Assembly: GCA_902515155.1 (NCBI GenBank)
Contig: CABXTT010000010.1
Span: 1 to 40,289 of the forward strand
DNA from: an uncultured SAR86 cluster bacterium
GTDB taxonomy: Bacteria; Pseudomonadota; Gammaproteobacteria; Magnimaribacterales; D2472
Reading direction: 5' to 3'
Length of the DNA: 40,289 nucleotides
Shown: piece by piece, positions 7,995 through 22,689 of the stretch
How positions within the stretch are numbered: position 1 is the first letter of the stretch
How the letters are laid out: each line of letters opens with the position of its first letter
Made by a program: the position numbers and the translations under genes
The notes under the pieces: model-generated
Seen by the model: the letters and a program-made list of their open reading frames with translations, nothing else
The model's database searches: none
What the model was told of the DNA's origin: nothing

Positions 7995-8498
7995 TTAATT
8001 GATTTCAGCCCTTCTATTTTTCGAGTGGCTTGATTCATCTGAGCCTTCAGCTATTAATCTTTCTTCACCATAACTTTTTACCAACACTCTTGATTTGTTC
8101 ACACCATTAACTGCTAAATAATCCCTAACAGACTCTGCCCTTCTTTGTCCTAATGCTAAATTATATTCTCTGGTACCTCTCTCATCAGCATGGCCTGATA
8201 TAGTGATTTTTATGGAAGAATTTTCTTTCATAGCAGTAACAGCACTTCGTAATGTTTGAATAGATTTGCTGCTCAGCTTAAAACTATCAAATTCAAAATA
8301 AACAGTTGCATTAGCTAGGATAGCCTTAGTTTCATAATTAACAGAAATATTATCTTTTACAGACGCCTCAACCGTTTGGATACCACCGTCATAAACACTC
8401 TCTTCAGTTACATTCATACTTGAACATGAAGAAAGTAATATTAAAAAAACAAATGTGCTAAAAAAGTTTTTGTTAGGTACATTTTTTATATTTATCAT
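7995..8498 (-). CDS. pal: Peptidoglycan-associated lipoprotein Pal
   Basis: Outer-membrane lipoprotein that binds peptidoglycan and TolB. The lipobox LSSC is at about residues 22-25. The OmpA-like domain starts with YFEFDSFKL and contains SGHADERGTREYNLALGQRRA, with the Asp and Arg that bind diaminopimelate, and ends with SKNRRAEIN. The 167 residues match the family. It lies 18 bp after tolB. Confidence 0.97.
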   Translation of the reverse strand: MINIKNVPNKNFFSTFVFLILLSSCSSMNVTEESVYDGGIQTVEASVKDNISVNYETKAILANATVYFEFDSFKLSSKSIQTLRSAVTAMKENSSIKITISGHADERGTREYNLALGQRRAESVRDYLAVNGVNKSRVLVKSYGEERLIAEGSDESSHSKNRRAEIN

Positions 8499-8516: not shown

Positions 8517-9791
8517 TTATCTTAAAAATCCTGACCAAGATGGCTCTCTAACTTCACCAGTTCTAGCAGGAAGTCTAAACTTTGCTCCACTAAGTGTGAC
8601 CCCTGAGAGCATACTCATTCCATCTTCAGTTACAGCATAGATTATCACATTCCCATTAGGAGAAATACTAGGTGATTCGTCTAATTTTGAATTCGTTAAC
8701 GGCCTTATAAAGCTTTCGTTTGTATACTTTAGAGCTATTTGAAAATTTTTTTCTGCTCTATGAACAAATACTATGCCTTCACCACTAGAAAGGTAAGACC
8801 CTTTGGCATTATAGTTTCCATCAAAAGTAATTCTTTTTGGTTTTGAACTAAATTTCCTTAAATTAATTTCATATAATTGAGGAGATCCAGATCTGCCAGA
8901 AGTAAACATAATCTTTGAACCATTTGGCGACCATGAGGATTCAGTATCAATTGCATAATGATTAGTCAATCTTGTAAGATTTTGATTTTTTAAATTTAAA
9001 ATATATATTTCTGCATTTCCATCTTGATACAGGGTTAGTGAAAGAAATTTACCGTTGGGAGACCAAGATGGTGAGCTTATCTGAGATGAGTTCTCTAAAA
9101 CCATCTCTCTTTTACCAGTTGCAATTTTTTGGATAAATACTTTTGCTATACCAGTTTCAAATGAAACATATGCAACTTGCTTCGAGTCTGGAGACCAAGA
9201 TGGAGATATTATAGGCTCAGAACTTTTTAGTAATGTTTGTTCATTAGAGCCGTCAGCATCTGCAACAACAAGTTTAAATATTGTCTTATCGTCGTTTATA
9301 TTCTCAGTTACATAAAGCAATTTTGTTGATGCTACTCCCTTTAAACCACTAATTTCTTCATATATTCCATCGCTAATGTAATGAGCTAACTGTCTTAACT
9401 TATTTGGAATACCAAATACTTTGGATGTCCTAATTTTTGTCTCTTTTTGTACATTAAAAACTTGATAAGATGCAGAAACATTAAATTTATCTTCATTTAT
9501 TAATGACCCTGTAATAATGAAATCAATTCCAAGTAACTTAAAATCTTCAAATTTAATATCTTCTTCATTTGTTGGTGTTGAAAGCAACTGAGATTCTCTA
9601 AATATTTTAAACTCCCCCGTCCTAATTAAATCAGCATTGATAATAGAATTTATTTCATTTGTTATTTTTTTTGATCCACTAAATTCAATTAATGCAATTG
9701 AGTATGGATCTTCAGAGCCTTTAGTGATTTCAAGAACTAATTCTGAAAAAATTAACTGACTAAAAAATAATAGTGATAAAAAAATCTTCAT
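8517..9791 (-). CDS. tolB: Tol-Pal system beta-propeller protein TolB
   Basis: Periplasmic protein that shuttles between Pal and TolA. Signal peptide about 1-16, an N-terminal alpha/beta domain (SIALIEFSG...), then a six-bladed beta propeller with repeated SWSPDSKQVAYVS / SWSPNGKFLSLT / SWSPNGSKIMFTSG blades. The 424 residues are normal. The start overlaps tolA by four bases. Confidence 0.96.
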   Translation of the reverse strand: MKIFLSLLFFSQLIFSELVLEITKGSEDPYSIALIEFSGSKKITNEINSIINADLIRTGEFKIFRESQLLSTPTNEEDIKFEDFKLLGIDFIITGSLINEDKFNVSASYQVFNVQKETKIRTSKVFGIPNKLRQLAHYISDGIYEEISGLKGVASTKLLYVTENINDDKTIFKLVVADADGSNEQTLLKSSEPIISPSWSPDSKQVAYVSFETGIAKVFIQKIATGKREMVLENSSQISSPSWSPNGKFLSLTLYQDGNAEIYILNLKNQNLTRLTNHYAIDTESSWSPNGSKIMFTSGRSGSPQLYEINLRKFSSKPKRITFDGNYNAKGSYLSSGEGIVFVHRAEKNFQIALKYTNESFIRPLTNSKLDESPSISPNGNVIIYAVTEDGMSMLSGVTLSGAKFRLPARTGEVREPSWSGFLR

Positions 9792-10390
9792 AGTGGGTTA
9801 AAAGTTATAACTATATTTTTAAAATTTTTTTGATACAAATTAAAGGGAATTTCATTAAAAAAACTAAAAGTTTCAACTCTTGAAATTGCCTTAATTGCAG
9901 AATTATCAAAACGTATATTGCCACTACTTTCAATTAAATCAACTTTTACAATCCTTCCATTCTTGTTGATTAACATTCTTAAATTGCAAACTAATCCGTC
10001 TTGAATATTTTGAGGTTTAATCCATGCTGATTGAATTAACTGAACCATCATATTGCTAAATTGATTTAATTGATCTTCTTCAGAATTAGACATGATAAGT
10101 TGGTCTTCTCTAATTAGGTTTCTGATATTTGTTGACTCAATTTTTGGTGATAAGGAAATTATATTTTCAACAGTAGTTATTGAATTGATTGTTGCCTTCT
10201 CTTCAATTATCTCAGTTTTTGAAATAGGCTTAATATCTTGTTTGAATAAAAGGTTCACATTTATTGCTTTGCTTAAAATTGGTCTTACCTGTTTTTCACT
10301 ATAGAAAAAATCCATCAAATATAAAATTATTAATGCATGTAATAAAAAAGATATAAAAGAAGCTATTAAGTAATCTGATTTAATCTGCAT
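9788..10390 (-). CDS. tolA: TolA, unusually short
   Basis: Inner-membrane protein that carries proton-motive energy from TolQR to TolB/Pal. One transmembrane helix (about 8-28) holds the SxxxH motif (Ser14, His18) that contacts TolQR. A C-terminal TonB-like domain (about 106-200) includes VCNLRMLINKNGRIVKVDLI. Between them lie only about 75 residues, where E. coli TolA has a helical domain of over 200, and the usual Ala/Lys/Glu-rich repeats are missing. The total is 200 residues against 421 in E. coli. The position between tolR and tolB (overlaps of 11 and 4 bp) makes the call safe. Confidence 0.88.
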   Translation of the reverse strand: MQIKSDYLIASFISFLLHALIILYLMDFFYSEKQVRPILSKAINVNLLFKQDIKPISKTEIIEEKATINSITTVENIISLSPKIESTNIRNLIREDQLIMSNSEEDQLNQFSNMMVQLIQSAWIKPQNIQDGLVCNLRMLINKNGRIVKVDLIESSGNIRFDNSAIKAISRVETFSFFNEIPFNLYQKNFKNIVITFNPL

Positions 10391-10802
10391 AGCCAGTAGT
10401 CACAATTCCTATTTTAGATATTCCAACACTTTGAACAGCCGCCATAGCTTTTGCAACGCTATCAAACATAACGCCTTTATCACCTTGAAAAACAACTTCA
10501 ATATCAGGATTTGCTTCAAAAATAATACTTGATTTTCTTTTTAGCTCATCGAGATTTATTGGCAATGTTTCTTCACCAACATTTATAAAATATTTTCCTT
10601 CTATATTTATAGATATGACAAGAGGCTCATTTTGAATTGACATTTTTGTAGTGTCAGTTTGTGGAAGATTAACTTCAATTCCCTGAATTAAAAGAGGTGA
10701 TAAAACCATAAATATAATCAATAAAACAAGCATTACATCTATATAAGGAACTACATTTATTTCTGCCTTAAGATTTTTTTTCTTGGCAAGCCTATAAATC
10801 AT
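10380..10802 (-). CDS. tolR: Tol-Pal system protein TolR
   Basis: ExbD/TolR family proton-channel subunit. A single N-terminal transmembrane helix follows the basic stretch; Asp22 in NVVPYIDVMLVLL is the conserved protonatable residue (Asp23 in E. coli). The periplasmic domain fills residues 45-140. The start overlaps the tolQ stop by four bases. Confidence 0.96.
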   Translation of the reverse strand: MIYRLAKKKNLKAEINVVPYIDVMLVLLIIFMVLSPLLIQGIEVNLPQTDTTKMSIQNEPLVISINIEGKYFINVGEETLPINLDELKRKSSIIFEANPDIEVVFQGDKGVMFDSVAKAMAAVQSVGISKIGIVTTGYAD

Positions 10803-11473
10803 TTATCTTTAATAGATTGTTTATAAAAAATGCTTGCGAGTTCTTCTGAAAAAATTAAAGTTGACTGACTCATTGTTTCTAGCTCAGAAGTATATTTGTT
10901 AAAAGCAATTACTGCAGGTATAGCTGCAAATAAACCCATTGCTGTGGCTACTAATGCCTCAGATATACCTGGTGCAACTGCATTTATGGTAGCTTGTGTT
11001 GCATCTGACAAGCCTTGAAAGGATGTCATGATTCCCCAAACTGTTCCCAGCAAGCCTACATAAGGACTCACAGAGCCAACATTAGCCAAAAAAGGTAAAT
11101 GTTTATTCATCTCCTCTTCGTCAGATGCAATTGCTACTCTCATACATCTATTGATACCCTCTAAGTCTGATTCTGAAATATGTTTATCTGTACTTATTTG
11201 CTTATACTCTTTATAGGAGCTTTTAAAAACATTTAATGATCCATATAAAAGTAATTCTTCATTAGCAATTTCATTATATAAACTATCTAGATCTTCCCCA
11301 CTCCAAAATTTTGTATGAAAACTATTATTGATTTTCTTAATTTTTTGGAAAAAATTATATCTTTCTACAATAACTATCCATGTTAATAGGGAAGCTACTA
11401 GCAATATAATCATTACAATTTTAACAACCATCCCCGCTTCAAGAAAAAGATTTATAATCGATATTTCATTCAT
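10799..11473 (-). CDS. tolQ: Tol-Pal system protein TolQ
   Basis: ExbB/TolQ/MotA family channel subunit with three transmembrane helices. The pair VGLLGTVWGIM (TM2) and ALVATAMGLFAAIPAVIAFN (TM3) carries the conserved pore threonines. The 224 residues are full length. It follows ybgC with a 4-bp gap, as in most gammaproteobacteria. Confidence 0.97.
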   Translation of the reverse strand: MNEISIINLFLEAGMVVKIVMIILLVASLLTWIVIVERYNFFQKIKKINNSFHTKFWSGEDLDSLYNEIANEELLLYGSLNVFKSSYKEYKQISTDKHISESDLEGINRCMRVAIASDEEEMNKHLPFLANVGSVSPYVGLLGTVWGIMTSFQGLSDATQATINAVAPGISEALVATAMGLFAAIPAVIAFNKYTSELETMSQSTLIFSEELASIFYKQSIKDK

Positions 11474-11477
11474 TTAT

Positions 11478-11894
11478 TTAGTCCTCATCAAATATTAATA
11501 ATAAATCATCGGGCAGTGGTTTTGGTTTTTTTGTATCAATATTTATTAAGCAAACCTCCACTAACCCTTTACAGATTGGTGTTTCATCTTTTTTTAATAT
11601 AATTTTTTGATTGAAAATCATTCGAGCATTTGATTTTTTTTCAACAGAAGACTTTACAACTAAAATGTCTCCAAGCTTCGCGGGAAAAAGATAGTCTATT
11701 TCTATTCTTTTTATAACAAAACCTAAATTGTTCTTTCTTAATATTTCTTGAGAGATGTTATTTGATGATAAGAAGTCTGATCTAGATCTTTCAAAAAATT
11801 TTATATAGTTAGCATGATATACAAAACCTTGAAAGTCGGTATCTTCAACATATATATAAATTGAAAAATCTTTATGCTTGAAAATTTTGCTCAT
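11478..11894 (-). CDS. ybgC: Acyl-CoA thioesterase YbgC
   Basis: Hotdog-fold thioesterase of 138 residues encoded with Tol-Pal. The active-site motif VEDTDFQGFVYHANY (Asp18) is intact. The ATG at 11894 lies 23 bases inside the preceding nuclease gene; this start is kept because the next possible one would remove the first strand and catalytic Asp. Confidence 0.94.
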   Translation of the reverse strand: MSKIFKHKDFSIYIYVEDTDFQGFVYHANYIKFFERSRSDFLSSNNISQEILRKNNLGFVIKRIEIDYLFPAKLGDILVVKSSVEKKSNARMIFNQKIILKKDETPICKGLVEVCLINIDTKKPKPLPDDLLLIFDED

Positions 11895-12297
11895 GGAGTT
11901 CTATATCTTTCTGGAATAACTCTAAAATAATTTGAATGAAGTCTGGCCATAAAAGATCTACAGTAACTAAATTATTTTGTATTTTTTCATTAATTGATGA
12001 AGCTAGCACTCTTACTTTTATAGGTCTATTATTGAATTTATAAACTAAAGCTGGCTTTAAATCATCTCCCTTTGACGATGCTAAAACCTGTTCCCACCAA
12101 TCTGGTCTTGGCTCAGCTCCTGAGCCATATGCTTTACATTCTATACACCAATTACCAAGTGTAAGGTCTGGAAGTTCTTTCGTTCTAGTTTGTTCAAGTA
12201 TTCTTTTTACAGGATTTCTTAAATTAAGATCTTGCATAAGAGCATTAGCTATTTGCCTCTCAAAAGTTGCTCCTTTATTTCTTGAATTAATGGGCAA
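11872..12297 (-). CDS. Small PDDEXK nuclease, phage-type putative Holliday junction resolvase
   Basis: A 141-residue protein with a clear PD-(D/E)XK core: Glu13 in KGATFERQIA, Pro43-Asp44, then Glu53-x-Lys55 in WCIECKAYG, followed by WWEQV with Gln70. The arrangement, and the opening NSRNKGATFER, resemble small phage proteins annotated as PDDEXK endonucleases or Holliday junction resolvases. The start is a TTG directly after the yebC stop; a strong AAGGAG Shine-Dalgarno lies in the last codons of yebC, and no ATG is available upstream. It occupies the place where ruvC-ruvA-ruvB lie in Pseudomonas (aspS-yebC-ruvCAB-ybgC-tolQ). Nuclease fold is well supported; junction resolution is inferred. 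Confidence 0.75.
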   Translation of the reverse strand: MPINSRNKGATFERQIANALMQDLNLRNPVKRILEQTRTKELPDLTLGNWCIECKAYGSGAEPRPDWWEQVLASSKGDDLKPALVYKFNNRPIKVRVLASSINEKIQNNLVTVDLLWPDFIQIILELFQKDIELHEQNFQA

Positions 12298-13038
12298 TTA
12301 GTTCTCCTTTATTTCAAAATTATCTGGAAATTCAGCATTTGTATGAACTTCTTGCACATCATCTAACTCATCCATAAAATCCATAATTTTAAGAACTTTT
12401 TCAGACATTTCTTGATCAATGGAAATTGAAGTCTCAGCCCGAAGTGTAAGCTCAGCGTTTACGTTTTCAATATTATTATCCTTTAACGACTTCAAAACAC
12501 TACTTAGATCAGAACTTGAAGTAACAATTTCAAAGTACTCTCCTTCATCTGTTAAATCTTCTGCGCCTGAATCAAGAGCAATCTCCATTAAGCTATCTTC
12601 AGGATAATTTTTTAGGACGTGGATAATGCCTATTTTATTGAATAAATAGGAAACAGAGCCATCAGTTCCAAGGTTTCCACCAAATTTAGAGAAGGCATGT
12701 CTAACATCAGAAACAGTTCTATTTCTGTTGTCTGACATAGTCTCAACTAAGATAGCTACTCCACCTGGGCCATATCCCTCAAATATAATCTCTTCTAAGG
12801 CTCCAGTTTCACCTGTTCCAGAGCCTTTCTCAATAGCTCTTTTGATATTATCTTTAGGCATATTAGCCGCATTAGCTTTATCTAATGCCAATCTTAATCT
12901 AGGGTTGTCATCTGGATCAGGACCGCCTTTAGCAGCGACTGTTATTTCTCTTATAACTTTTGTCCAAACTTTTCCTCTTGAGGCGTCTTGTCGAGCTTTT
13001 CTATGTTTTATATTTGCCCATTTTGAATGACCGGCCAT
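12298..13038 (-). CDS. yebC: YebC/PmpR family protein (TACO1 family)
   Basis: A 246-residue conserved cytoplasmic protein beginning MAGHSKWANIKHRKARQD, the family signature. Members have been described as transcriptional regulators and, more recently, as ribosome-associated factors that help at proline stalls. It sits three bases after aspS, the conserved gammaproteobacterial position. Confidence 0.97.
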   Translation of the reverse strand: MAGHSKWANIKHRKARQDASRGKVWTKVIREITVAAKGGPDPDDNPRLRLALDKANAANMPKDNIKRAIEKGSGTGETGALEEIIFEGYGPGGVAILVETMSDNRNRTVSDVRHAFSKFGGNLGTDGSVSYLFNKIGIIHVLKNYPEDSLMEIALDSGAEDLTDEGEYFEIVTSSSDLSSVLKSLKDNNIENVNAELTLRAETSISIDQEMSEKVLKIMDFMDELDDVQEVHTNAEFPDNFEIKEN

Positions 13039-13041
13039 TTA

Positions 13042-14808
13042 TTATTCTTCCTTGTGAGTACTAAGTATTTTTAGTTCATCTAATTGAGATTTATCAACAT
13101 TGCTTGGAGCATCAGTTAACAAACATGTAGCGCTTTGAGTTTTTGGAAAAGCTATTACGTCTCTGATATTTGTTGTATCAGTTACTAGCATAACTATTCT
13201 ATCTAATCCAAAAGCAATTCCACCATGGGGCGGACATCCTGATGATAGGGCTTTTAGAAGAAATCCAAATTTATTTTCAGCCTCTTCTTTTGTGATTTTT
13301 AAAATTTCAAATATAGTTTTCTGCATTTCTGTATCGAAAACTCTTAATGACCCACCACCAATTTCATAGCCATTTAAGACAACATCATATGCATGAGCAA
13401 GAGATTTTTCAGGTGATGCTTTTAACTCACTTGAACTACAATCAGGCAATGTAAATGGGTGATGGAGTGAGGTTAAATCCCCATCAGTATTTCTTTCAAA
13501 CATTGGGAAATTAACTACCCAACATGGCGCCCATTTCATTTGGTATAAACTTAAATCTTCTCCTATTTTTTTTATCAAACTACTCATACTAAGATTTACC
13601 ACAGATTTTTTACCTGCTCCAAAAAATAGTAAATCATCATTTTCAAGATCTAAATCTGAGATTAATGAAGATATGGTTTCATTTTTTAAGAATTTTAAAA
13701 TTGGAGACTGTAATCCATTTTTGATATCATTTTTGTCATTAACCTTAATATATGCAAGTCCTTTAGCGCCTAATTTAGACACAAAATTAGTGTAGTCATC
13801 AATTTGGCCTCTGGATAATGAATTACCACCTGGGATTTTCAATGCAACTACTCTTGAATTAATATCCTTAGCCGGTTCTGCAAATACTTTGAATTCTTCA
13901 TCTTTAACCAATTCTGATATTTCAATTAGTTTGAGGGGTATTCTCAAATCAGGTTTATCACAACCATAATCTCTCATAGAATCATGCCAATTTATTATAG
14001 GGAATGAGCCTAATTCATCTTCGCAAAATTCTTGTATCAAAGCCTTAATCATTCCTTCGCCAATTTCCATAATATAACTTTGATCAATAAATGAGGCTTC
14101 AATGTCAATTTGAGTAAATTCTGGCTGCCTATCTGCTCTAAGGTCTTCATCTCTAAAGCATCTTGCAATCTGATAATATTTATCTAGGCCACCTATCATC
14201 AAAAGCTGCTTAAATAGTTGAGGAGATTGAGGTAATGCAAAAAATTTACCGGATTGAACTCTACTTGGTAAAATAAAATCTCTTGCACCCTCTGGAGTTG
14301 CTCTTGTAAGGATAGGAGTTTCAATTTCATGAAAACCATTAGCATCCAAATAATTTCTTATCAGTGAACTAATTTTTGAGCGAACAACAATTCTTTGATT
14401 CATCTCAGGTCTTCTTAGATCTAGAACTCTGTTTTTTAAACGAACATCTTCATTAACTTCTTGATAATCATCCAGAGGAAAGACCGGTGTTACAGCCTTA
14501 CTTAAAATACTAATGTTGTTTGCTTCTAATTCTACTTCACCAGTTGTCATATTTTTGTTTACAGTACCTTCCAATCTTGCTCGAATAGTTCCAGAAATTT
14601 TTACTACAAACTCATTTCTTAAGGTTTCTGCAATCTTAAAAGATTCAGCATTATCTGGGTTTATTACGGCCTGGCATATACCTTTGATATCTCTAACATC
14701 AATAAAAATTACTCCGCCATGATCTCGTCTTTTATGAATCCAGCCGCATATGGTTACCTCTTGATCAAGATTTTCGGATGTAATTTCTCCACAATAGTGA
14801 GATCTCAT
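13042..14808 (-). CDS. aspS: Aspartyl-tRNA synthetase
   Basis: Class II synthetase, 588 residues, full-length bacterial type. N-terminal OB-fold anticodon domain (CGWIHKRRDHGG), motif 2 FRDEDLRADRQPEFTQID, the bacterial GAD insertion in the middle, and motif 3 GIAFGLDRIVMLVT near the C-terminus. It begins 14 bp after the FmdB gene and is followed closely by yebC. Confidence 0.98.
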   Translation of the reverse strand: MRSHYCGEITSENLDQEVTICGWIHKRRDHGGVIFIDVRDIKGICQAVINPDNAESFKIAETLRNEFVVKISGTIRARLEGTVNKNMTTGEVELEANNISILSKAVTPVFPLDDYQEVNEDVRLKNRVLDLRRPEMNQRIVVRSKISSLIRNYLDANGFHEIETPILTRATPEGARDFILPSRVQSGKFFALPQSPQLFKQLLMIGGLDKYYQIARCFRDEDLRADRQPEFTQIDIEASFIDQSYIMEIGEGMIKALIQEFCEDELGSFPIINWHDSMRDYGCDKPDLRIPLKLIEISELVKDEEFKVFAEPAKDINSRVVALKIPGGNSLSRGQIDDYTNFVSKLGAKGLAYIKVNDKNDIKNGLQSPILKFLKNETISSLISDLDLENDDLLFFGAGKKSVVNLSMSSLIKKIGEDLSLYQMKWAPCWVVNFPMFERNTDGDLTSLHHPFTLPDCSSSELKASPEKSLAHAYDVVLNGYEIGGGSLRVFDTEMQKTIFEILKITKEEAENKFGFLLKALSSGCPPHGGIAFGLDRIVMLVTDTTNIRDVIAFPKTQSATCLLTDAPSNVDKSQLDELKILSTHKEE

Positions 14809-17689: not shown

Positions 17690-18706
17690 CTATTTTGTAG
17701 ATTTTGCTTTACTCGCTATATATGCATCTCTTATTTCTTTTAATAATCCTTCGCGAATCTTTGCATTTTCTTTTAGAAACATACTTGCTTTTACTTTACC
17801 TTGCCCGATGGTTTCGCCATCAATCTTATAAAATGCACCTGACTTTTCTACTAATCCAAGTTTATGGCCATAATCAAGAATCTCACCCTCTGAATTTATA
17901 CCCTGACCATACATTATCTGAAACTCAGCCTGTTTAAATGGAGGTGAAACTTTATTTTTTACAACTTTAACCCTAGTTTCGTTGCCCATTATTTCGTCAC
18001 CCTCTTTTACTGCTCCAATTCTTCTTATATCTAGTCTAACTGAAGAGTAAAATTTGAGTGCATTTCCACCTGTAGTGGTTTCTGGACTCCCAAACATAAC
18101 ACCAATCTTCATTCTAATTTGATTAATGAATACTACTGTAGCCCCTGATCTTTGAATATTTCCTGTTATTTTTCGCAGGGCTTGTGACATTAAACGCGCT
18201 TGAAGGCCAACGTGATGATCGCCCATCTCCCCTTCTATTTCTGCTCTTGGAACGAGTGCTGCAACTGAATCTATAATTACCAAATCAACACTTTTTGATT
18301 TAACTAACATATCAGCGACTTCTAGTGCTTGTTCACCTGTATCAGGTTGAGATAAAAGAAGTTCGTCGACATTGACACCAAGCTTTTCTGCATATTGTGG
18401 ATCTAATGCATGCTCAGCATCTATAAATGCACATGTTCCACCATCTTTTTGGCATTGAGCAATAATTTGAAGTGTTAATGTTGTTTTTCCTGATGACTCT
18501 GGTCCGTATATCTCAGTAACTCTTCCTTTAGGGATTCCGCCTATCCCTAGTGCGATGTCCAATCCAACAGATCCAGTTGATATAGAAGGAATGTCCAGTA
18601 TTTCCCTGTCTCCCATCCTCATAACGGTGCCTTTGCCGAAATGACTATCTATATCTGCCAGTGTGTCTTTTAATGATTTATTACCCGTATCTTTTGATTT
18701 AGCCAT
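17690..18706 (-). CDS. recA: Recombinase RecA
   Basis: Strand-exchange ATPase and co-protease of the SOS response. Walker A GPESSGKT at 68-75, Walker [11 protein letters not shown], the L2-region [17 protein letters not shown], and normal length (338). A strong Shine-Dalgarno (AAGGAG, 18712-18717) precedes the ATG. It has its own LexA-controlled promoter and an intrinsic terminator, so it is a single-gene unit. The C-terminal tail is less acidic than in E. coli, ending basic (ASKAKSTK). Confidence 0.99.
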
Positions 18707-20516: not shown

Positions 20517-21255
20517 TTATGTATTCTTTTAAATTATCTCTTAAAATCTTTTGATCAAGGGTATAGTCCAAAACAGAAATAGATATATAGCCATCTCTAA
20601 CTGCCTCAGCATCTGTTATGTGTCCCTCTTTAATAGGTTCTCCTGAAAGATTATATCTGTAGGTCTTTGTATTTTTATTTGAGCATACTTCTATAGGCTT
20701 TGAAGGTATCCCTCTTTGTGCAAGAGCAGTTACTTTTTCACCTTTACAATATTCTTCTGGTAAATCAGGAAAATTAACGTTTATAACTTTGCCAAGAAAG
20801 TCCTTTGGTAGAGTCGTCACAGTTTCGATAATTTCTATAGATTTATTCACTATGAAATCTATGTTCTCACTATCATATGAAGCAACAGAAATAGCTACAG
20901 GAGGATATTTTAATTTTCTACCGCCTACAGCAGCTCCGACTGTTCCAGAATATATAACATCATTGCCAATATTGGCTCCATGATTTATCCCAGAAACAAC
21001 CATATCAAATTCAAAGTCGACAATGCTTAATAGACCAAAATAAGTGCAATCTGCCGGTGAGCCATCAACTGAGTATATTTGGTCATCAACTTTTGTAATT
21101 TCAGTTTGCTTCAAAAAAGAAATTGCTGCACTCATCCCACTGCAATTTTTTTTAGGAGCTATTAACCAGACATCATGAGATTTTGAAAGTTGTTTATATA
21201 GTGCTTTAATATTTGGTGCATCATAACCATCATCATTTGTTAATAAAATCTTCAT
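20509..21255 (-). CDS. surE: 5'/3'-nucleotidase SurE
   Basis: Metal-dependent survival-protein phosphatase acting on nucleoside monophosphates. The metal motif NDDG is at residues 7-10, then GSPADCTYFG, SGINHGANIGNDVIYSGTVGAA and the C-terminal TDAEAVRDGYISISVL. The 248 residues are normal. It overlaps ispDF by four bases (ATGA). Confidence 0.96.
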   Translation of the reverse strand: MKILLTNDDGYDAPNIKALYKQLSKSHDVWLIAPKKNCSGMSAAISFLKQTEITKVDDQIYSVDGSPADCTYFGLLSIVDFEFDMVVSGINHGANIGNDVIYSGTVGAAVGGRKLKYPPVAISVASYDSENIDFIVNKSIEIIETVTTLPKDFLGKVINVNFPDLPEEYCKGEKVTALAQRGIPSKPIEVCSNKNTKTYRYNLSGEPIKEGHITDAEAVRDGYISISVLDYTLDQKILRDNLKEYINE

Positions 21256-22397
21256 ACAATTTCTCTTAAATTCACTATAGATTGAACGGATATTGCTTTA
21301 TTTTTCCCGATAATGCCAACTTTTTCTGCAGTAGTTGCCTTTAAGCCAATTTTTGATTTTGGCAACCCTAGAATAATTGAAAGACTATCTAAAATATAAT
21401 TTCTGTGAGGACTTATCTTTGGCGATTCACAAATAATAGTTGCATCAACATTATAAATTTCCATTTTTAAATCTTTAATTTTATTGAGACAGAAATCAAT
21501 TATTACCTTACTATTTAATCCTCTATTTTGTTTGTCGGTATCTGGAAAAAAAATACCAATATCTCCAAGAGCTGAAGCACCAAGAATAGAATCAGCTATT
21601 GAATGCAAAAGAACATCACCATCAGAATGAGCCTCAATTTCATAATCACATTCAAGTAGATACCCTCCAATCAAAATGCCTTTACCTCTTTTATAGGTAT
21701 GAAGGTCATAGCCCGAACCTGTTCTAGTAGAAAACTTTCTTAAAAGATCTAAGTCATCTTTATGAGTAATCTTTATATTTGAAGATCTCCCTCGAATTTT
21801 TGAAATCTTTGCATTAATTGAATCCATTGCAAAAGATTCATCTGGAACATTTATGCCGCTATCTAACAAAGCCTCTAGAGCAGACTTTAATTTAGTTAAA
21901 TTTGAAATTTGAGGTGTTTGTACCAAATAAAATTTAGACTTTTCCTTTGTAATATCTTTTTCTTTAGAAATCTCTTTTAAGGAGTCAACCATTGGCATAT
22001 AAAAAATTGAGCAATCACTTTTGGTTGAAAGAATTTCGTTATAAATATTAGAAATATCATCTTCAGTAACATTTGGTCTTGCAGCGTCATGAACGATAAC
22101 AAAATCAAAACCTGAGACCTCTTTATTTTTTAAAGCATTTAAAACCGATTCTGCTCTTGATGAACCACCTTTAACTATTGTAATTTTTGAATCGCCATAA
22201 AAACTTTGTTTTTTGATGTATTCATCATTTGGAGCTACAGGAATCAAAATCTTTGATATTAAATTTGAATCAATAAAAGGTTGAATAGAATGTTCAATTA
22301 CAGATTTACCATTAAGGTCTTGATATTGCTTTGGTATGTGAGAGTCAAATCTCTGTCCTATTCCAGCAGAAGGAACAATTGCTAATATATTATTCAT
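21252..22397 (-). CDS. ispDF: Bifunctional IspD-IspF of the MEP isoprenoid pathway
   Basis: One 381-residue protein joins 2-C-methyl-D-erythritol 4-phosphate cytidylyltransferase (IspD, about 1-221; VPSAGIGQRF and VHDAARP motifs) to MECDP synthase (IspF, about 225-381; zinc ligands in GYDLH, then EAHSDGDVLLHSI and TTAEKVG). The linker is only a few residues. The ATG at 22397 is chosen over one 13 codons upstream because it starts exactly at the IspD domain and overlaps the ftsB stop by eight bases. Gammaproteobacteria usually have separate adjacent ispD and ispF here, while fusions are known in alpha- and epsilonproteobacteria. Confidence 0.95.
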   Translation of the reverse strand: MNNILAIVPSAGIGQRFDSHIPKQYQDLNGKSVIEHSIQPFIDSNLISKILIPVAPNDEYIKKQSFYGDSKITIVKGGSSRAESVLNALKNKEVSGFDFVIVHDAARPNVTEDDISNIYNEILSTKSDCSIFYMPMVDSLKEISKEKDITKEKSKFYLVQTPQISNLTKLKSALEALLDSGINVPDESFAMDSINAKISKIRGRSSNIKITHKDDLDLLRKFSTRTGSGYDLHTYKRGKGILIGGYLLECDYEIEAHSDGDVLLHSIADSILGASALGDIGIFFPDTDKQNRGLNSKVIIDFCLNKIKDLKMEIYNVDATIICESPKISPHRNYILDSLSIILGLPKSKIGLKATTAEKVGIIGKNKAISVQSIVNLREIV

Positions 22398-22689
22398 TGT
22401 CTTTATCTTCCTCTTTAAATGAAATGAATTCCTCATTTGGATATGAAAGATTTAGTTTTTCTCTCGCAAAATTTTCAACATGATCATCAGACTTTTGAGC
22501 GTTATTAATTTCGAATTCTAAAATATCATTTTTATTTTTAAGATCATTATTTTGAATAACTAAATTATTATTTTCATTGATTAATAATTGTTTTTTTGAA
22601 TAACTATTATTTCCAAAAAAAGTGCTATTAAATAAGATAATAGTAAGCATTAATAAAAGTGAAATTAGCAAATAAAAAAGTTTGTTCAT
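22390..22689 (-). CDS. ftsB: Cell division protein FtsB
   Basis: Bitopic septal protein of 99 residues: a short cytoplasmic start, one transmembrane helix (about 4-24), then an Asn-rich coiled-coil (about 35-70), ending with a [18 protein letters not shown] block typical of FtsB (compare AREELGMVRPGE). It forms the FtsQLB complex with FtsQ, encoded elsewhere in this window. The eno-ftsB-ispD order is the gammaproteobacterial one. It overlaps eno by four bases. Confidence 0.9.

Follow-up and report, generated by a model that had tools for sequence, protein, structure and literature searches.

A phage-related nuclease of archaeal Hjc type occupies the ruvC-ruvA-ruvB position in SAR86 bacteria and is proposed to be their Holliday junction resolvase

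The window analysed in this work is a stretch of 40,289 nucleotides from a SAR86 cluster bacterium, and it corresponds to contig 10 of a genome whose assembly amounts to 1.02 Mb and is 75% complete. An open reading frame encoding a protein of 141 residues, called NUC from here on, is found between the genes yebC and ybgC (Table 1). Its start codon is TTG, which abuts the stop codon of yebC with no gap; the Shine-Dalgarno-like motif AAGGAG is located within the 3' end of yebC, 6 nt ahead of this TTG, and the 3' end of the NUC gene lies inside ybgC, with an overlap of 23 nt. An earlier note on this DNA had described the reading frame and its start, the ribosome-binding motif, the overlap, the residues Asp44, Glu53, Lys55 and Gln70 and the opening NSRNKGATFER, and all of these features have been found in the gene as described. 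The neighbours that it had named are partly confirmed: aspS, yebC, tolQ, tolB and pal score over the cut-offs of their families, whereas tolR and tolA remain under theirs, and ybgC is below the YbgC equivalog cut-offs (TIGR02799, 126.7 against 141.35 bits), so that its name holds at the subfamily level.

Table 1. Features of the window around the NUC gene, with the evidence for each assignment.
Feature	Position	Strand	Evidence
pal	7995..8498	-	TIGR02802, 126.6 bits, over cut-off
tolB	8517..9791	-	TIGR02800, 400 bits, over cut-off
tolA (weak match and operon position)	9788..10390	-	TIGR02794, 47.8 bits, below cut-off 59.45
tolR	10380..10802	-	TIGR02801, 126.4 bits, just under cut-off 127.3
tolQ	10799..11473	-	TIGR02796, 256 bits, over cut-off
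ybgC-type thioesterase, downstream of NUC	11478..11894	-	TIGR00051, 92.6 bits, cut-off 68.7
NUC, Hjc-type PD-(D/E)XK protein, 141 aa, proposed Holliday junction resolvase	11872..12297	-	Open reading frame, Pfam, phrog_244, AF2 model with Foldseek and VIA
yebC, upstream operon neighbour of NUC	12298..13038	-	NF001030, 340 bits, cut-off 243
AAGGAG, Shine-Dalgarno-like	12304..12309	-	Sequence
aspS	13042..14808	-	NF001750, 818 bits, over cut-off
recA	17690..18706	-	TIGR02012, 525 bits, over NCBIfam cut-off

The gene recA is located 2.9 kb past aspS. Its presence indicates that strand exchange is kept in this bacterium, and therefore recombination junctions should still form. Apart from this region, IspD and IspF are fused in a single reading frame of 394 aa (window positions 21252-22436, minus strand), which scores 333.5 with the bifunctional model, below the cut-off of 417.

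The position of NUC is constant in SAR86. The adjacency yebC-NUC-ybgC was observed in 80 out of 80 named loci kept from 180 relatives; these loci all come from that side of the order to which the window belongs, and the yebC-NUC pair is present in loci from all four families. Such an arrangement cannot be attributed to chance, given both the 80 named loci and the four families, and NUC is the sole occupant of the slot between yebC and ybgC in those loci. In eight of the nine loci fetched from the family f4 (L055-L063), tolQ comes after NUC with no ybgC match between the two, and in the ninth (L060) neither ybgC nor any tol match is seen there. According to the earlier note, NUC sits where ruvC, ruvA and ruvB belong, and this agrees with other Gammaproteobacteria: profile searches revealed the order yebC-ruvC-ruvA-ruvB-ybgC in two genomes of the class (L258 and L267). 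Among 20 RuvB loci of the class, picked non-randomly from the matches listed, ruvB is flanked by yebC and by ybgC or tolQ in 10, by only one of these flanks in five and by neither in five. The possibility that NUC is a prophage remnant was considered and rejected, because it stands after yebC in 63 chromosomal loci and in the 80 named loci, and because its sequences group by SAR86 family (f1, f2 and f4) in the tree described below.

The distribution of NUC and of the proteins for junction processing was analysed in 151 genomes of the order, including that of the window; 40 of them are considered good (completeness of 90% or more, contamination of 5% or less). NUC was found in 137 genomes (38 of the good ones). 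Of the 14 misses, 12 are genomes without any yebC match; in G046 the contig breaks off within yebC, and in G054 it does so 24 nt into NUC. All of them thus concern unassembled loci, and in this sample no assembled locus was seen without NUC. On the other hand, profile searches gave no match to RuvB_C or to RuvC in any of the 151 genomes. RuvA_N matched in two of them at E 0.001. The one over the cut-off (G118) is a full-length RuvA of 214 bits beside an RND efflux permease; since its contig is only 3.3 kb long and the genome has 3% contamination, this contig is probably foreign. The second match (G020, 19.8 bits) is below the cut-off. The window's own genome gave two RuvB_N matches, and with 29.2 bits one exceeds the Pfam cut-off of 27; the two proteins turned out to be ClpX (646 bits) and Lon (1140 bits). 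The same searches in 14 named control genomes detected RuvB_C in 10, RuvA_N in 10, RuvC in eight (six over the cut-off), RadA over the cut-off in 10 and RusA in three. In a sample of 229 genomes of the class, RuvB_C is present in 213 and NUC in five, three of which belong to the order while the other two are weak matches in genomes that have RuvB_C too; 13 genomes outside the order lack matches to both RuvB_C and NUC. The idea that ruvABC is hidden by the incompleteness of the window's genome was rejected on the basis of the 151-genome sample with its 40 good members. The suggestion of the earlier note that this could be a genome without RuvAB is supported, and no intact ruvABC set was detected elsewhere: ruvB and ruvC were not found in the sample of the order, and ruvA exceeds its cut-off in a single genome, on a short contig.

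Few alternatives to RuvABC are left among the proteins searched for, as RadA/Sms does not pass its cut-off in any of the 151 genomes (weak matches in 148, the best one with 42 bits against a cut-off of 403) and RusA was not found in any of 61. The distribution of RecG is uneven. In the genus of the window (g1) and four related genera (g2, g3, g4 and g9) none of the 34 genomes has a match at the level of RecG, the best one never being stronger than 1e-110, a value that frames of Mfd size attain in other genomes; judging from the score and from the frame length there, these weaker matches would be Mfd. Among the other 117 genomes of the order, the match falls under 1e-170 in 110, of which 61 exceed the curated cut-off; in addition, G047 has a fragment at a contig edge. 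YqgF (RuvX) is present in 138 of the 151 genomes and in the 40 good ones. It could be argued from this distribution that YqgF resolves the junctions in SAR86 and that NUC has another job, and passages of Rocha et al. (PMC1193525) do treat YqgF as a candidate resolvase for genomes that lack both RuvC and RecU. Nevertheless, the same passages state that YqgF accompanies RuvC or RecU in the majority of genomes and that it had not been shown at that time to act as a resolvase; besides, a resolving YqgF leaves the position of NUC in the ruv slot unexplained, and we consider this explanation quite improbable.

NUC changes slowly at the amino acid level. Divergence was compared over 13 loci by means of dN, because synonymous sites have reached saturation or come close to it. 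Against the six closest loci (L086, L087, L091, L093, L096 and L098) dN is 0.064-0.095 for NUC and 0.060-0.088 for yebC, the values for aspS and ybgC being 0.100-0.113 and 0.205-0.254, respectively. Against the other seven loci the ranges are 0.112-0.260 for NUC, 0.080-0.245 for yebC, 0.101-0.273 for aspS and 0.246-0.442 for ybgC. Thus, dN of NUC is lower than that of ybgC in all 13 comparisons and similar to those of yebC and aspS, and the constraint on NUC is about as strong as that on these two housekeeping genes. These results bear on the proposal that SAR86 needs no dedicated resolvase, either because recombination is rare or because junctions are dissolved or reversed, with NUC being kept for anti-phage or other use. 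RuvABC and RadA were not found, nor was RecG in some genera, which is what would be expected if the late steps of recombination had been shed, and the 13 other genomes of the class without RuvB_C also do without a NUC match. However, NUC is found at every assembled locus with little amino acid change and RecA is present; a role as a defence gene was discarded, as NUC has no PADLOC match. The proposal is accordingly held to be highly improbable.

With respect to its sequence family, NUC matches PDDEXK_15 (PF24608) with 39.3 bits against a gathering cut-off of 27. This is the sole Pfam family listed at E <= 10, and it also matches the 49 members of the NUC profile A2 at E <= 1. The match to phrog_244 has an E value of 2.4e-13; this phrog is named RusA-like Holliday junction resolvase, a name that does not stand for a functional test. 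The label "RusA-like" does not fit, since NUC gives no match to the RusA model (PF05866) at E <= 10. There is no NCBIfam match at E <= 1 either, RuvC (TIGR00228) included, and the RecU sequence family does not appear among the Pfam or NCBIfam results. Regarding the archaeal resolvases, NUC does not match the Hjc family PF01870 at E <= 10 and only one of 49 relatives does so (E 0.2), while the 1gef sequence, used as positive control, obtains 113 bits. In the sequence search against the PDB, NUC alone had one chance-level match (E 0.78) and the profile A2 had none.

An AlphaFold (AF2) model of NUC was built from 49 aligned sequences chosen from the window and 160 fetched loci, with a mean pLDDT of 87.8. 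When this predicted model was compared with the PDB using Foldseek, ranks 1 to 9 were all archaeal Hjc or Hje enzymes (best E 9.4e-4), with a single match passing E 0.001 (TM 0.54/0.60). The highest Z scores in VIA were those of 1gef (10.3, with an rmsd of 2.7 over 102 residues), 2wcw (10.2) and 1ob8 (10.1), and the eight top rows among those listed are all Hjc/Hje with Z of at least 9.0. RecU/PrfA stays under the best Hjc rows (Z 6.3). Besides, BFVD contains 24 viral models at E 0.001, the best one with a TM of 0.78; among the named rows listed, some carry the name Holliday junction resolvase. The alignment of A2 with three Hjc sequences by hhalign reached a probability of 93% (E 3.3e-7), and that of the SAR86-only profile A1 only 16%. 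In the former, the residues E13, D44, E53, K55 and K87 of NUC are paired with E9, D33, E46, K48 and K81 of Hjc. Twelve residues (K8, G9, E13, R32, Q36, D44, E53, K55, W67, W68, Q70 and P82) are identical in 97 out of 97 aligned rows, and E13, D44, E53 and K55 are predicted to constitute the active site. The pI of NUC is near neutral (6.8), as residues 1-105 have a pI of 9.5 and the tail is acidic; that of Hjc from P. furiosus is 10.

The best structural matches are consequently enzymes acting on Holliday junctions, and not a nuclease class devoid of junction specificity. The earlier description of NUC as a phage-type PDDEXK resolvase agrees with its family and fold, with the reservation that archaeal Hjc type is a better structural name than RusA-like. 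It has to be considered, nevertheless, that the PD-(D/E)XK fold serves many substrates. NUC might be a nuclease for branched DNA or repair (flaps, nicks or mismatches) that came to the ruv slot by chance, the junctions being handled by something unrecognised; the nuclease domains of SPARDA, with a Z of 7.7, are level with some Sulfolobus-type Hjc chains (7.8, 7.7 and 6.8), and the family names of NUC say putative endonuclease only. The nine top Foldseek matches and the eight highest VIA rows speak against it, as does the location of NUC in the ruvCAB slot of an order where ruvB and ruvC were not found, and such a repair nuclease seems unlikely.

Several known systems resemble NUC. The archaeal Hjc/Hje enzymes (PF01870; 1gef, 2wcw and 1ob8) share its fold at a Z of about 10 and their KGxxxER helix, D, ExK and KF elements can be aligned; however, the NUC sequence is too distant for the Pfam model, and NUC has a WWxQV segment, an acidic C-terminal tail and a bacterial chromosome as its location. 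Another is Hjc_15-6 from the Thermus phage Tth15-6, a phage-carried resolvase of archaeal type with the motif E-xD-ExK. Its description (PMC8805305) reports cleavage of X-shaped DNA and the motifs E-SD-EVK and, in other proteins, E-PD-EVK; the motif of NUC, E-PD-ECK, fits the latter. Hjc_15-6, whose structure is not among the Foldseek and VIA rows listed, is a thermophilic phage protein, in contrast to NUC, which belongs to a host operon. In the same way, PDDEXK_15 and phrog_244, to which NUC is assigned by profile, are described as phage proteins, whereas NUC is fixed as a chromosomal gene.

Relatives of NUC are indeed found in phages, with matches in eight of 50,697 phage records. In Roseobacter phage CRP-811 the relative adjoins a PD-(D/E)XK nuclease-like gene, a ssDNA-binding protein and a helicase, and in Salmonella phage S144 it is annotated as putative resolvase. 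IMG/VR provided 414 stretches with relatives, of which 80 were kept, the best being 58% identical to NUC; none of these 80 matched the ten window neighbours searched. The viral contigs L166-L185 carry marine copies 50-58% identical to the SAR86 gene, and perhaps they belong to phages of SAR86. Their copies in L166, L168 and L182 lie mostly amid virion, lysis and metabolic genes, an endonuclease adjoining that of L166. Within the genus of the window, one locus (L054:4504-9100, G026) contains a second, diverged copy of NUC beside a RecE-like exonuclease and a primase/helicase. This copy groups with viruses in the trees, apart from the chromosomal one, and is probably a prophage or phage remnant.

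A first tree comprised 58 of the 80 viral loci (the 22 omitted were identical to a kept row, shorter than 95 aa or without a match), in addition to 34 SAR86 sequences taken from the 63 chromosomal loci. The rows were grouped by family with supports of 59 for f1, 82 for f2 and 100 for f4, and f3 was not grouped. In a second, unrooted tree of 64 rows, from which six long-branch rows had been removed and in which the viral rows had been thinned to 29, a branch (100/97) separates SAR86 and nine near viral rows from the other viral rows. These near viruses seem to nest inside SAR86, on nodes that are partly weak, and SAR86 alone as one clade obtained a p-AU of 0.03, the group having been named after the first tree was seen. 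Since the tree is unrooted and some of the near viral copies appear nested in SAR86, the gene may also have returned to phages at a later time. The simplest interpretation would be that the family arose in phages, that its gene was fixed ahead of the diversification of SAR86 and that exchanges with phages followed, phage-to-host being the probable direction of the first transfer.

Taken together, the position of NUC, the near-complete absence of RuvABC from the genomes sampled in the order, the fold and the active site lead us to propose that NUC resolves Holliday junctions and has displaced RuvABC: an archaeal-type phage enzyme would have been fixed in the ancestor of SAR86, replaced RuvABC rather than met its empty place by coincidence, and become the housekeeping resolvase. 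A probability of about 0.77 is given to this explanation. The nuclease, ssDNA-binding, helicase or RecE-like genes beside the relatives in CRP-811 and L054 speak for it, and what speaks against it is the missing match to the Pfam Hjc model, the low probability of A1, the near-neutral pI, the wide presence of YqgF, the full-length RuvA of G118 and the virion, lysis and metabolic neighbours in L166, L168 and L182. It supports the earlier idea of a domesticated phage resolvase that took over junction cutting, the cleavage itself being deduced from the fold, the active site of the model and the genomic context.

According to this proposal, a gene of a family common in marine phages would have come to stand where the yebC-ybgC-tol operon formerly held ruvC-ruvA-ruvB. 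RecA would generate joint molecules, and a NUC dimer would bind the four-way junction specifically through its basic core; in each subunit Mg2+ would be held by E13, D44, E53 and K55, and two opposing strands would be nicked to yield two ligatable duplexes. In most bacteria the RuvAB motor works with RuvC. The cutting by NUC would run without this motor, and branch migration could depend on RecG where it survives; in the genus of the window it may be driven by another motor, be spontaneous or not take place. It is conceivable, at somewhat less than even odds, that this genus and its near relatives lack RuvAB, RecG and RadA altogether, and that in them a single phage-derived Hjc-type protein processes Holliday junctions without a known branch-migration motor.

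NUC shares with RuvABC the chromosomal position and the proposed cellular role, but there is no sequence match between them and NUC is one small protein without a motor. Passages of Rocha et al. (2005, PMC1193525) describe resolvases as present in almost all bacteria and propose that proteins of prophages may act as substitutes. The same source describes RecU in place of RuvC in Firmicutes, which is also a substitution across a bacterial group; there, however, RuvAB is retained, whereas RuvA and RuvB appear to be gone in SAR86, and the fold of RecU is a weaker match to NUC, as indicated above. In the open-access literature searched, no paper on SAR86 with ruvC, ruvA or Holliday junction was found.

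It appears that SAR86 lost the whole RuvABC complex and that a phage-type enzyme of archaeal fold is located in its operon slot. SAR86 would then be a natural case of wholesale RuvABC replacement, in which the share of the motor and of the cut in the work of RuvABC becomes testable. If the single-protein scheme is true for the genus of the window and its relatives, these bacteria would represent a free-living lineage in which late recombination has been cut down to RecA and one archaeal-type resolvase.
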